Notes: generated from the letters alone by a model not told the origin. DNA of 13,316 bases from Candidatus Hydrogenedentes bacterium CG07_land_8_20_14_0_80_42_17 (GCA_002780065.1 PEWQ01000010.1:1-13316); one strand, 5' to 3'. Positions 2,546 through 7,203 are shown, numbered from the stretch's first letter. Program-made: numbers and translations.

Positions 2546-4495
2546 TTACTCATTACGCAGTTCGTAAAGTCCGACCCATTCCTCTCCACGCTCCTCTTTG
2601 AGCATTATGCAGTATGAATCGTTCGAAAGCATCTCTCTCACAATCTCTGTATCACGACTGCATAGAGGAGGTTCCCTCTCGCCAATCTTAATCGCAGAGT
2701 TGTAAGTCGGCTCGTTCAAAAGAATATGCGTTATTCCAGCGCGCTTAAGGTCTTTCCATAAAGTCTTCGCAGAATGGCTCGCATGAGCTCTATCGTAGAC
2801 TCTGCCGCGTTCCCAATAACCGTCAAAAATTATTCGCCTCTGAGTATAAAAAGTCCGCGACTCGCCAATCGAATAAATAACGGCAGAAGATTTCGTTCTT
2901 TCATTGATAAGAAGTTGATATGGATATGTGTTGCATGTCAGCTCGATGTATCTATTCATATTAAAAAATCCTGAGTGAAGCATAAGACTAGGCATATACC
3001 TATCAGTGGCAATCACCGAGGCTCCGAACGAAATGAAACCGGCAAAAATCGAGATTGCAATAAGTTTTCTGCTTCGAGCCAAAATCAAAGAACCGCTTGC
3101 AGAAAGCAAAACAAAAGTCGGCAGTAGAAATCTGGATTGACCGTGCCCGCCGATAAACCACAAAACAATAGATGCCGCAGAGGAGAGCATTATTGCTCGG
3201 CGGCGCTTATTTTCGTCAGAAAAGAGCATTCCAGCAAAAACTGAAGTCATGATTAATACTCCGATTGGGCCGTCAATGTTCAGAGACTTTGCTTCAAAAA
3301 AACTTTCAGCAAGATGAACAGCTCTAGCTTGAACCGCAAATAAAATGCTGTTTGCAGATTCTAATATGCCGCTCGATTCTGCGCTCATTGTTGCAGCTAT
3401 GTTAGGCGCAAGAATATGACCAACCATCAGATAGTTTCGCACTGCCCAGTATGAAGGAATAATTCCAACAGAAACTAAAATAAAGAATTTAGTTTTTAAT
3501 GAGGAGTCTCTACTCAACATTCTCCACGCAATAAAAGGCAGAGCTATTAAAGATAGCGTAGGTTTAACACCTAATCCTGCGCCGATGAGTAATCCTCCCC
3601 AGTATTCGTATTTTTTTCGCAAAGAAAGGTCTCTTATGTCAGCTTTGAGCCATGAATTTATTCCCCACATAAGCGCAGCAATCGAAAGCAAATCGTCTTT
3701 GGTATGAAAAAGAATTATGCTGACTATTGGAGAAGTCGCTACAGCGGCAGAGGCGATTAGTCCGGACAGAATTAGAGTTTTTTTCGAATCAGTATCTGAA
3801 GCAAGATTCACTACGATGCAATAACATGCTGAGACAAGCGAAAGCAAAAAAATAAAACCTGTCATGTTTGCTGAAATACCTGTTGAATCGAGCGCAAGCA
3901 GCGGCATGATCGCCATTCCAAATTCCTGCCAATAAAAATAATATCCGATCTCATCCAGCGGTCTAAGACTATGAGAAAGCAAAAACTGTCGAGGAATATT
4001 AAGATGATACGTAGTCGCATCCATTCCTATCGGAGGACCAAGCACAGATTGAAATTTCCAAAGCAATGCGATGAAAATTAGAAATTGAAAAATTGTTTCA
4101 CTTACAGTTAATAAATTTTCCGATCGTGATAAAGGTTTCTGAAAAGATGCCCGGCTAAATCTTCCAATAAGCAGAAGTGGAAAGATAAAGAGCGGCAACG
4201 CGGCAAGCGCAGGATAAAGAATTCCAAATGAGCCTATGACGATTACATAAATAGATAGAGCAAAATATCCGGTAAGTATTTCTTCAAACAAATAGGCGTC
4301 TTCTGCAAATATTTTCGCAACACGCCAGCCAATGCCCCACGCCGCCAATAATGAAAGTATTGTAAAAAGAAAAGGCATCAGCAATTCTTTTCCTTCAGCA
4401 GGCAGTCCAGCCAGAATAAGAGTCAGAATGGAACCAATTACAAGTATGATTCCGACAATCCAAACTAAATAATATTGGAGTTTGAATTCTCTCAT
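2546..4495 (-). CDS. Polytopic GT-C-type glycosyltransferase, signature residues intact
   Basis: A 649-residue integral membrane protein with about a dozen hydrophobic segments up to residue 495, then a soluble tail of about 150 residues. It has the pattern of the GT-C (ArnT/PMT-like) superfamily, whose members move a sugar from a polyprenyl-phosphate carrier on the outer face of the inner membrane. Seen directly: a first-loop acidic motif GMDATTYHL (D159, Y163, H164), TKDD (K266-D268), GVKPT (K311), WAVRNY (W350, R353) and QSRFLLP (R455). These spacings and residues recur in that superfamily. The acceptor and sugar cannot be told. The ATG (4493-4495) overlaps the TGA of the upstream paralog as ATGA, which predicts translational coupling. 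The soluble tail contains ITHILLNEP, mirrored in the neighbour as FTHILYLPI. It could instead be an oligosaccharyltransferase or ligase-like protein. Confidence 0.7.
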   Translation of the reverse strand: MREFKLQYYLVWIVGIILVIGSILTLILAGLPAEGKELLMPFLFTILSLLAAWGIGWRVAKIFAEDAYLFEEILTGYFALSIYVIVIGSFGILYPALAALPLFIFPLLLIGRFSRASFQKPLSRSENLLTVSETIFQFLIFIALLWKFQSVLGPPIGMDATTYHLNIPRQFLLSHSLRPLDEIGYYFYWQEFGMAIMPLLALDSTGISANMTGFIFLLSLVSACYCIVVNLASDTDSKKTLILSGLIASAAVATSPIVSIILFHTKDDLLSIAALMWGINSWLKADIRDLSLRKKYEYWGGLLIGAGLGVKPTLSLIALPFIAWRMLSRDSSLKTKFFILVSVGIIPSYWAVRNYLMVGHILAPNIAATMSAESSGILESANSILFAVQARAVHLAESFFEAKSLNIDGPIGVLIMTSVFAGMLFSDENKRRRAIMLSSAASIVLWFIGGHGQSRFLLPTFVLLSASGSLILARSRKLIAISIFAGFISFGASVIATDRYMPSLMLHSGFFNMNRYIELTCNTYPYQLLINERTKSSAVIYSIGESRTFYTQRRIIFDGYWERGRVYDRAHASHSAKTLWKDLKRAGITHILLNEPTYNSAIKIGEREPPLCSRDTEIVREMLSNDSYCIMLKEERGEEWVGLYELRNE

Positions 4496-6354
4496 TGCTC
4501 TCGCCTTTCAGTCAATTCATAAAGACCTAGCATATTTTCTTCTCGAATTATCGTTTTGCATTTTCCGATCATACTAAGAATTATCTTCTCGTCTTCGCCG
4601 CACTGAGCCTCAGCCGATTCTTTACCCAAAAGCTCTTTTCTCAAAGAAATCGGGAGATACAAAATATGAGTAAAGCCTTTCTCAATCAGTTCTTTTCTCA
4701 AAGAATCGGCGTCATGTGAACTATGAGCTAGTTTGAGCATCAGGTTTTTTTCTCCGAATCCATCGACAACAGCGTAACGGTGGAGATAAAACAATGATTT
4801 CTCGCCGAATGAAAGAACCTTCGCCGATTCCGGAATCATTTCATTCCCTGCTCTCTGCGGGACATAAGTCCGGTTCCATTTTGCGACAAAAAATACAGGA
4901 TCAATCTTACTCGTAAGAATCTGAATAAAAGAATGCGTCTTCTCTGAAAATAAAACTCCTGATGAAAAATTTATTAACAATGCAATGGCAATGCAAATCT
5001 TCAAAAGTCTATTTCGGACAAAGCCTGTATCTATGGTCAAAACCGGCCATAAGACGAAGAGCGGCAATAATTCTATCGAATTGCCGCTTCCCAGAATAAG
5101 CCATGAAGCAATCGAGATAAAACCTGCAATGACGACTTTTCGCAGAATCGAATTATTTTTAATAGAAAATATTGAAATAAAAATCAATATTAGAAAAACG
5201 GCTCCCAAAGGATAACTCAATTCTTCAAAATTAAAAACTACAAAACCTTTCATAAGAGAATTTATGCGAGTTAAAATATTTCCGATCGAAAATTCTTCGC
5301 TAAATTTAAATGAATATGTTCCGGAAAAATAATTTATGAATATCCAAAAAAGCGGGAAGATACTTGAAACAATAATAATCTTAAAGATTGTAGAAAAAGA
5401 AAACCTGCGGAACGAAAAGACTAGAGCAACCGGCAGAAAAACAAAAAGTGATGACGGATTTATTGCAACAGCCGAAGAAACCAGCAGCCCGTGCCAAACG
5501 GAATATCTCCAGCCATTTCCGCTCTTTGAAAAAAAAAGTCCGTGAATCGCCGCAAGCGTATAAGCAGTAGATAGCAGATAGGAAGATGTTGTAAGCAATA
5601 GAAAAAGAATAATTGGAGAAGTAATTATTACGCCAAAAGAAATTAGTCGGTCTTCAATATCGCATCTTTCATTCAAAATCGAAGAAGCAATCCACGCGAT
5701 AAGAAACGCGAAAAAAAATCCAAGTATGTTAACAGCAATGCCATTTCTATCGAGCGCAATAATCGGCAGAACAAGCATCTGGTATTGCCGAAAAACCGGC
5801 AATCCAACGGAATAATCAGTCAGAAAAATACTTTTTCGAACAATGGACTGATCTGCCGGGCCAAGATTGTTCGTCAATGCTTCCTTGCCTGTGATAGGAA
5901 CAAAAGTTGAAAATAAAGTCCAAATCAAACTCAATAATATGATGAATAACATGAATTTTGTTAAATGAGTTTTAACTGTCATGAGATTTTTTATGTCTGA
6001 ATTCAGCTTTTTCAAAGCACAAATTGTTTTCGTAGGAGACATCATCAGAGGTAAAATAAATAAAGGTAAAATTACAATCTGTATGTATAGAATGCCAAAC
6101 ATCCCTAAAAGCATAGGTATGATGGAGATGATTGCAAAGCCGACAAGATACTTCGACCATGGAAATACCGATATGGAAATTAACTTAGAGATAATATTTC
6201 CCACATTCCATGACGCAATAATAGTAAGCGAAACGGCAATTAAAGAAAAAAAATAGTCTAAGGAATTACCTGGAAATCCGGATTCAAACTGTAGAATACA
6301 GCCAGTTACAACTCCAAATACAACCAACAAAATAATTGTTATTTTTTCATTCAC
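4492..6354 (-). CDS. Paralogous GT-C-like membrane protein with degenerate signature residues
   Basis: A 620-residue polytopic protein with the same architecture as its downstream neighbour: a dozen or so hydrophobic segments, then a soluble tail from about residue 480. Homology to the neighbour is visible in matched segments: LLALDSTGI versus IIALDRNGI, TSPIV versus TSPII, and a tail ending in GLYEL in both. The key polar residues are replaced. D159/Y163/H164 of the neighbour become E158/N162/N163, K266-D267-D268 becomes S257-S258-Y259, K311 becomes N299, R353 becomes I340 and R455 becomes I427. So it is probably catalytically altered or inactive, perhaps a partner or regulator of the neighbour. 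It starts at GTG (6352-6354), since an in-frame TAA lies four codons upstream with no other start between. No Shine-Dalgarno is visible. It is visibly richer in A+T, Ile, Phe and Lys codons than ppdK or fabF. Function unknown. Confidence 0.72.
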   Translation of the reverse strand: MNEKITIILLVVFGVVTGCILQFESGFPGNSLDYFFSLIAVSLTIIASWNVGNIISKLISISVFPWSKYLVGFAIISIIPMLLGMFGILYIQIVILPLFILPLMMSPTKTICALKKLNSDIKNLMTVKTHLTKFMLFIILLSLIWTLFSTFVPITGKEALTNNLGPADQSIVRKSIFLTDYSVGLPVFRQYQMLVLPIIALDRNGIAVNILGFFFAFLIAWIASSILNERCDIEDRLISFGVIITSPIILFLLLTTSSYLLSTAYTLAAIHGLFFSKSGNGWRYSVWHGLLVSSAVAINPSSLFVFLPVALVFSFRRFSFSTIFKIIIVSSIFPLFWIFINYFSGTYSFKFSEEFSIGNILTRINSLMKGFVVFNFEELSYPLGAVFLILIFISIFSIKNNSILRKVVIAGFISIASWLILGSGNSIELLPLFVLWPVLTIDTGFVRNRLLKICIAIALLINFSSGVLFSEKTHSFIQILTSKIDPVFFVAKWNRTYVPQRAGNEMIPESAKVLSFGEKSLFYLHRYAVVDGFGEKNLMLKLAHSSHDADSLRKELIEKGFTHILYLPISLRKELLGKESAEAQCGEDEKIILSMIGKCKTIIREENMLGLYELTERREQ

Positions 6355-6355
6355 T

Positions 6356-6370
6356 ATGCATAGATTTTAT
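6356..6370 (-). promoter_or_regulatory. 15-bp start-site motif, copy 1 (glycosyltransferase-like gene)
   Basis: On the minus strand ATAAAATCTATGCAT ends one base before the GTG start. The same motif with one change (ATAAACTCTATGCAT) sits at the radA start (12640-12654). It contains the -10-like TAAAAT (6364-6369). It also contains an ATG out of frame with the gene, opening a five-codon frame (ATG CAT AGT GAA TGA) that ends inside the start of the real gene. Confidence 0.45.
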
Positions 6371-6392
6371 ATTGAGTAGCAGCACGTTGCAA
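6364..6392 (-). promoter_or_regulatory. Candidate sigma-70 promoter of the glycosyltransferase pair, near-leaderless
   Basis: TTGCAA (6387-6392) and TAAAAT (6364-6369) on the minus strand are 17 bp apart and match the consensus hexamers at 4 and 5 of 6 positions. A start about 7 nt after the -10 leaves only a few bases before the GTG at 6354, which fits the absence of a Shine-Dalgarno. The -35 lies in the middle of a perfect 16-bp palindrome. The pilin terminator lies just upstream, so a separate promoter is expected here. Confidence 0.45.
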
Positions 6393-6414: not shown

Positions 6415-6450
6415 AAAAAAAACCGCCTGTCAAAAGGCAGACGGTTTTTT
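6415..6450 (-). terminator. Rho-independent terminator of the pilin gene
   Basis: Read on the minus strand, ACCGTCTG pairs with CAGGCGGT around the 8-base loop CCTTTTGA, and the stem is extended by A6/T6 flanks ending in a T-run. One internal pair is U-G in minus-strand RNA but would be a C/A mismatch in plus-strand RNA, so the hairpin is tuned for the minus strand. It begins 11 bp after the pilin stop codon, and separates the pilin from the glycosyltransferase-like genes. Confidence 0.88.
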
Positions 6451-6461
6451 CTAAATCAAAC

Positions 6462-6875
6462 TTACGGGCAATCGCTAGAAAATGCCAACTTTCCCTGCGG
6501 ACTGCTATAATATTGCCATCCTTCTGCAGTCGTGTTACAACCGTTAGCATTGGCAATCGACACACAAAGGGTATAGATATTACCATCTCCTTTGTAAAGA
6601 AAAGAGCCATTCCAAGGACTTGTCGGTGCTTGAGCCATGTAAGCTGACACGATGTATGTTGAAACATTGATTGACGCCGCAGTATTTGGATATTGATAGT
6701 TGGTTCCATAATACATTGCCAGAGAACCATTTAGTGAGCCTAATACTCCGGCTGTTTGACCGGCCTTTGACTGGCAGATAGCTGCAAATAGTTTCGGTAA
6801 TGCAATAGCGGCAAGAATACCGATGATTGCTACTACTACGAGCAATTCAATAAGAGTAAAACCTTTTTTTCTCAT
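6462..6875 (-). CDS. Type IV prepilin / type II secretion pseudopilin-like protein
   Basis: A 137-residue precursor with a class III signal. MRKKG is the leader, cleavage is expected after G5, and the mature protein would start with F6 with the invariant glutamate at mature position 5 (E10). The hydrophobic helix FTLIELLVVVAIIGILAAIA follows. A prepilin peptidase would cut and N-methylate it, and the product would assemble in an inner-membrane-based pilus or pseudopilus. Four cysteines (C34, C104, C113, C136) could form disulfides, with C104/C113 enclosing a short loop. The globular part has SPWNGSFLYKGDGNIYTL, recalling major pilins and GspG-type pseudopilins. The ATG at 6873-6875 is chosen over two in-frame GTGs (6885-6890), because those GTGs are part of a strong ribosome binding site. 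No assembly genes are in view. It has its own terminator, so it is probably monocistronic and highly expressed. Confidence 0.93.
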   Translation of the reverse strand: MRKKGFTLIELLVVVAIIGILAAIALPKLFAAICQSKAGQTAGVLGSLNGSLAMYYGTNYQYPNTAASINVSTYIVSAYMAQAPTSPWNGSFLYKGDGNIYTLCVSIANANGCNTTAEGWQYYSSPQGKLAFSSDCP

Positions 6876-7048: not shown

Positions 7049-7083
7049 CGTTCGAAAGAAATCGAATTTCTTCTTTCAAGCGG
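7048..7083. repeat. Imperfect inverted repeat with long arms
   Basis: The left arm (7048-7062, containing TTCGAAAGAAAT) is nearly the reverse complement of the right arm (7066-7083, containing ATTTCTTCTTTCAAG), with small bulges and the loop CGA. Both ends carry CCG/CGG. It joins the REP-like palindrome directly on one side and the tandem array on the other. Its function is unknown. Confidence 0.5.
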
Positions 7084-7203
7084 AACACATAGGTTCTAAG
7101 GGCGAACACATAGGTTCTAAGGGCGAACACATAGGTTCTAAGGGCGAACACATAGTTCTAAGGGCGAACACATAGTTCTAAGGGCGAACACATAGGTTCG
7201 CCC
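7083..7203. repeat. Six-unit 20/21-bp tandem array ending at the ppdK stop
   Basis: Units starting GAACACATAGGTTC recur at 7083, 7104, 7125, 7146, 7166 and 7186 with no spacer DNA, joined by TAAGGGC. The first three repeat at 21 bp, the next two at 20 bp after losing one G of the GG, and the last regains it. Each 21-bp unit can form a 4-bp GAAC/GTTC hairpin. The last unit forms a longer hairpin, GGGCGAAC (7182-7189) with GTTCGCCC (7196-7203). The array looks like an expansion of half of that palindrome. Confidence 0.85.

Follow-up and report, generated by a model that had tools for sequence, protein, structure and literature searches.

A candidate pseudo-glycosyltransferase encoded with an intact GT-C-like paralogue downstream of a type IV prepilin gene in a Candidatus Hydrogenedentes bacterium

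The window analysed here, a stretch of 13,316 nucleotides, corresponds to contig C181 in the metagenome-assembled genome of Candidatus Hydrogenedentes bacterium CG07_land_8_20_14_0_80_42_17, an assembly that totals 2.39 Mb in 207 contigs and is 87% complete. Its nearest relative among the searched genomes is Ca. Hydrogenedentota bacterium J006 (G001), which is placed with it at the level of order only. The main genes of the window are all encoded on its minus strand, and two adjacent ones specify large membrane proteins, hereafter UP and DOWN. UP starts approximately 110 bp past the stop codon of a prepilin gene on the same strand, with a Rho-independent terminator in the interval, and so has the layout of a pilin-accessory gene, which directly follows a type IV pilin gene and is separated from it by a terminator (Table 1).

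Table 1. Features of the prepilin and GT-C gene region, in window coordinates
Feature	Position	Strand	Description
UP	4492..6354	-	predicted GT-C-fold membrane protein, 620 aa, GTG start; candidate pseudo-glycosyltransferase without the family active-site signature (E158, N162, N163, Y259, N299, I340 and I427 at the signature positions, UP numbering)
DOWN	2546..4495	-	predicted GT-C-fold membrane glycosyltransferase, 649 aa, ATG start; full signature (D159, Y163, H164, K266, D268, K311, R353, N354, R455)
ATGA overlap	4492..4495	-	4 nt, UP stop and DOWN start; read from the sequence
Type IV prepilin (GspG-like pilin)	6462..6875	-	137 aa, ATG start, AAAGGTGG ahead of start
Rho-independent terminator between pilin gene and UP	6416..6450	-	hairpin -16.2 kcal/mol, z -5.45, followed by a T run
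Promoter-like TTGCAA-17-TAAAAT	6364..6392	-	about 10 bp ahead of the UP start codon; weak consensus evidence

The prepilin has a class III signal and is GspG/PilA-like. Four N-x-S/T motifs (residues 49, 70, 89 and 114) and 22 Ser/Thr residues are present among the 137 amino acids of the predicted pilin, and the genome carries an STT3-like gene at its other locus with a prepilin and a GT-C gene (contig C55, below). Promoter-like sites of the type found ahead of UP number 16 in the region where 12.5 are expected. An Rfam search of the window gave no match. Two tandem repeats were also observed, one with a 21-base unit in 5.7 copies (7083-7199), located between the genes for PPDK and the prepilin, and another with a 14-base unit at positions 1-58.

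A preliminary description of this DNA noted an ATGA overlap between the two membrane protein genes, and positions 4495-4492 do read ATGA, so that translation of UP and DOWN is likely coupled. The two proteins align over 645 columns with 27% identity and 45% positives (E 4e-54) and hence are true paralogues. Origin as sister genes from a local duplication is favoured (tree support 77/77).

Neither UP nor DOWN matches any Pfam or NCBIfam model at E values up to 1, including PF13231 and NF047510. Among 42 aligned homologues, however, 33 match PF13231 (PMT_2) and 31 match NF047510 (LIC_10190), and it is through these homologues only that the pair is tied to the two families. A literature search on LIC_10190 yielded no characterised function. 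The same genome carries one more paralogue, on contig C55, while G001 has three close paralogues and a distant one. A profile built from the five intact close paralogues identified members in 77 of 386 genomes. Searching genome contigs for relatives returned three loci of the sister genome J006 only, and the viral contigs searched held no relative of UP or DOWN. No orthologue of UP was found among the genomes searched. The distant G001 member (L075:1199-3160, contig C11) is very divergent, with D268 replaced by Y and K311 by H, and has the longest branch in the tree (3.01). Another member (L077, G265:C172) is split across two overlapping frames, probably by a frameshift or as a pseudogene.

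AlphaFold2 models were generated from the family alignment and are confident for both DOWN (pLDDT 89.5, pTM 0.91) and UP (pLDDT 85.9, pTM 0.90). The GT-C fold proposed for both proteins in the preliminary description agrees with these models, as the best solved-structure match of each is ArnT (DOWN: Z 23.0, 442 residues, rmsd 4.5; UP: Z 22.3, 433 residues, rmsd 4.2). The next matches of both models are ALG12, PMT and the catalytic subunits of oligosaccharyltransferases, within a Z range of 18-23. In DOWN, juxtamembrane helices 158-164 and 166-174 come after helix 131-150, as in GT-C proteins. The models thereby predict, almost certainly correctly, a GT-C fold for both UP and DOWN. The match to ArnT (5f15/5ezm) spans the membrane module as well as the C-terminal domain, but sequence identity to UP and DOWN is only 6-12%, and the acidic and basic residues of the active site are missing from UP.

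A search of the PDB with the family profile yielded nothing beyond weak matches to GT-C proteins (GPI mannosyltransferase 1, E 5.8e-6), and the residue-level mapping onto ArnT is therefore based on helix positions and the literature rather than on a residue alignment. Between UP and DOWN themselves, the one-to-one correspondence of positions claimed earlier is upheld by sequence and by the helix boundaries of both models. DOWN 159 lies in a helix starting at 158 and UP 158 in one starting at 157; helices begin at DOWN 268 and UP 259; DOWN 311 and UP 299 each form a one-residue break between helices; and DOWN 455 and UP 427 are each one residue into a helix.

The catalytic base of PimE is D58, which is situated at the tip of JM1 and held by Y62 (D+4), while K195 binds the donor phosphate; the mutations D58A/N, Y62A and K195A abolish activity (PMC12041525). 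DOWN resembles this arrangement: D159 is placed at the beginning of the predicted helix that follows helix one of the GT-C module, and Y163 occupies D+4, a fit to the D58/Y62 pair (PMC12041525). K311 is the presumed counterpart of the EL3 lysine. That the residues lost from UP are catalytic ones, as had been proposed from general knowledge of the superfamily, is in keeping with the catalytic or donor-binding roles of their equivalents in PimE, ArnT and TMTC (PMC12041525, PMC7801869). Active GT-C enzymes have an acidic residue in EL1 together with basic phosphate-binding residues. DOWN possesses this set (D159, Y163, H164, K311, R455) and is very probably an active transferase. UP instead has E, N, N, N and I, with the acid alone conservatively kept.

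All of the residue changes listed in the preliminary description recur in the alignment of UP with DOWN. In DOWN numbering, D159 is replaced by E, Y163 and H164 by N, the KDD motif at 266-268 by SSY, K311 by N, and both R353 and R455 by I. The wider assertion that UP has lost every charged or polar signature residue stands for these key losses, but “every” is too strong, as UP retains Q170, W350, N354 and R391 as well as E545, R553 and H590 in the C-terminal domain. Moreover, the change at D159 is conservative, and R353 is less diagnostic than the other positions, because K/R is likewise missing at this site in intact relatives such as L003 (S), L041 (I), L096 (Q) and L102 (L). UP also reads GKEA where other members read GMDA.

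Conservation was scored at five signature positions (D159, H164, D/E268, K/R311 and K/R455 in DOWN numbering). When UP is set aside, D159 and H164 are each present in 43/43 homologues, D/E268 in 43/43, K/R311 in 43/43 and K/R455 in 42/42. Across 85 full-length members from many bacterial families, a survey that leans to intact members (its first profile held intact sequences only, while the second, A3, included UP), all five positions are kept in 78. The remaining seven comprise three members with four positions, one with three, two with two, and UP, which alone has none; each of the 84 others thus keeps at least two. Several members on branches longer than that of UP (for example 2.44 and 2.31, versus 1.84) still keep nearly all signature residues, so branch length does not explain the loss in UP, which is far beyond chance.

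We also considered whether a degenerate partner is the rule in tandem pairs of this family, and rejected the idea, since most other tandem pairs hold two intact copies. The five key positions are intact in both copies of the pairs from G372, G374, G318, G246 and G110 (one copy being truncated at a contig end), and the G206 pair has a single change, H164 to F in its first copy. Three positions are lost in G129, where the genes are divergently transcribed, and four of seven in G072, where a 624-aa member lies behind another GT-C gene. Members with part of the signature lost, each near another GT-C gene, lie at L074:5515-7614 (H164, K311 and R455 lost) and at L101:1284-3158 (Y163, H164, D268 and R455 lost).

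The best functional clue is the prepilin-terminator context, which is absent from the preliminary description. The assembly contains nine prepilin-type genes at five loci, and both of its loci for this GT-C family, the window and contig C55, adjoin a prepilin gene. By a rough estimate that assumes 1.5% per locus within 3 kb, the chance of finding two of two loci near a prepilin gene is about 2 in 10,000. On C55, the third paralogue is accompanied by a prepilin gene and an AglB/STT3-like gene. A similar order recurs in an unrelated genome (G288), where a terminator (13-pair stem plus T run) comes after a PilA-like prepilin gene and is in turn followed by an intact family member, 82 bp past the prepilin stop codon. 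The gene upstream of that prepilin gene resembles a response regulator, as at pilR-pilA loci. However, none of the four family loci in G001 is on a prepilin-bearing contig, and most members elsewhere have no prepilin gene within the short flanks that were read, which rules out pilin modification as a role common to the entire family.

The described pilin-accessory cassettes of Pseudomonas aeruginosa share this layout. A terminator after pilA attenuates the accessory genes and is a hallmark of these cassettes, and TfpW is a GT-C family arabinosyltransferase that acts on pilin (PMC11841053). As in the pilA-terminator-tfpO/tfpW cassettes, the locus presented here combines a prepilin gene, a Rho-independent terminator and a gene for a GT-C membrane protein on the same strand, and group IV strains likewise have a second, non-enzymatic accessory protein, TfpX (PMC11841053). 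The locus departs from the TfpW cassettes in its second protein, which is a degenerate paralogue of the GT-C protein itself, and the likeness drawn here is one of gene layout and description.

By analogy, PIG-U would be the closest precedent for UP as a pseudoenzyme. In PIG-U (Gab1p) the acidic EL1 motif is replaced (DxD to SSW), and the protein has a scaffold role in the GPI transamidase (PMC12653191, PMC9098846). Its fold is GT-C-like, and structure 7wld_U matches DOWN with Z 14.3 and UP with Z 12.7. PIG-U differs in being eukaryotic and part of a five-subunit transamidase, with no intact paralogue encoded alongside, and UP is not closely related to it. Our literature search for a bacterial GT-C pseudoenzyme found nothing relevant.

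If UP were a decaying pseudogene whose frame is not yet lost, its longer branch (1.85 versus 1.19 for DOWN), its GC content below that of its neighbours and its missing conserved sites would be accounted for. Yet its 620-codon frame is open at an identity of only ~25-27% to any relative, and in neutral simulations starting from DOWN, none of 200 frames was still open at 70% amino-acid identity, which excludes an unselected open frame of this length. Codon usage is genome-like, correlating with the rest of the window at 0.83 in frame against 0.60 and 0.43 out of frame, and the predicted fold is a confident one. Compared with four other paralogues of the clade, the C-terminal domain of UP is as similar as that of DOWN (25.9-29.9% and 21.6-29.5%), whereas its membrane module is less so (18.3-24.0% versus 28.3-32.8%). 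At invariant sites defined on five intact close paralogues, UP keeps only 1/10 charged, His or Tyr residues of the membrane module, versus 15/24 other invariants of that module (Fisher p 0.008) and 8/10 in the C-terminal domain (Fisher p 0.005). Each intact paralogue, when left out in turn, keeps 10 of 11-13 charged sites, while UP keeps one or two. This uneven retention makes the loss specific to the active-site region. The preliminary view that selection preserves the frame and fold of UP is in accord with the neutral simulation and the C-terminal conservation; UP is in all likelihood maintained by selection, and decay is a very improbable explanation. Having kept its predicted fold but lost active-site residues that nearly all relatives retain, UP is probably a non-catalytic helper, and we consider it likely that it lacks the canonical activity. 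Counted against a catalytically dead UP is the acid kept at the base position (E158). UP could instead be re-specialised, with E158 as base and new residues such as K157 binding a different donor, so that two transferases act in sequence. The conservative D-to-E change, the GKEA in place of GMDA, the preserved fold and helix pattern, and the two intact enzymes in most other tandem pairs of the family are in line with this option. Nevertheless, the simultaneous neutralisation of Y163, H164, D268, K311 and R455, set against the survey above and the fact that the D+4 tyrosine and phosphate-binding lysine of PimE are each essential (PMC12041525), makes it rather unlikely.

The reading we prefer, with roughly even chances of being right, is a pilin-accessory cassette in which DOWN glycosylates the pilin or a pilin glycan and UP is its non-catalytic partner. 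The cassette would consist of a prepilin gene, an attenuating terminator and a co-translated GT-C pair. DOWN would be a GT-C(A) enzyme that uses a polyprenyl-phosphate sugar, with D159 as catalytic base, and would act in the periplasm on the adjacent pilin or on a glycan attached to it. UP, having kept the membrane fold and soluble C-terminal domain without the base and the charged equivalents of the donor-binding residues, would be unable to bind or activate a donor by the usual route. It would most likely assist either DOWN or the pilin as a non-catalytic partner, in stability, acceptor recognition or specificity. Gene context slightly favours the pilin or its glycan as the target, and gene coupling makes a physical UP-DOWN heteromer conceivable, if somewhat short of an even bet. 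It is doubtful that the full scenario holds, in which a GT-C pseudo-glycosyltransferase evolved from a co-translated enzyme and an enzyme/pseudoenzyme heteromer modifies the adjacent type IV pilin. The pair could also be unrelated to pilin and have lipopolysaccharide, cell-wall glycans or other glycans of the surface as its target, with the prepilin gene a chance neighbour. Family members elsewhere do occur in polysaccharide or mixed loci that lack prepilins, the terminator after the prepilin gene is strong and could simply separate unrelated units, and UP and DOWN may have their own promoter. This is the less probable alternative, given that a post-pilin terminator is a described hallmark of pilin-accessory cassettes (PMC11841053), that the 2.39 Mb assembly has only five prepilin loci and yet both family loci adjoin one, and that the prepilin-terminator-GT-C order recurs in G288.

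Kinases and other soluble enzymes include well-known cases of pseudoenzymes that regulate an active paralogue or serve as its scaffold. Among GT-C glycosyltransferases, PIG-U is the example of such a role that we found. To our knowledge, no GT-C pseudoenzyme has previously been described in a bacterial pilin cassette, and UP, if our reading is true, would be the first. A co-translated bacterial enzyme/pseudoenzyme pair, if real, would offer a compact and testable system for how a GT-C scaffold functions without catalysis, and the prepilin link suggests a function for part of the large, uncharacterised LIC_10190/PMT_2 family of membrane proteins.

Contig C55 (L065) has additional features. Its AglB/STT3-like oligosaccharyltransferase gene (3934-5523; TIGR04154, E 3.8e-22), found here in a bacterial genome, is divergent from a prepilin gene and overlaps the third GT-C paralogue at the latter's 3′ end. 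An EcoRV-type restriction endonuclease (964-2829; PF09233, E 2e-103) is encoded on the same contig beside a D12 class DNA adenine methyltransferase, ~0.5 kb from the second prepilin gene.
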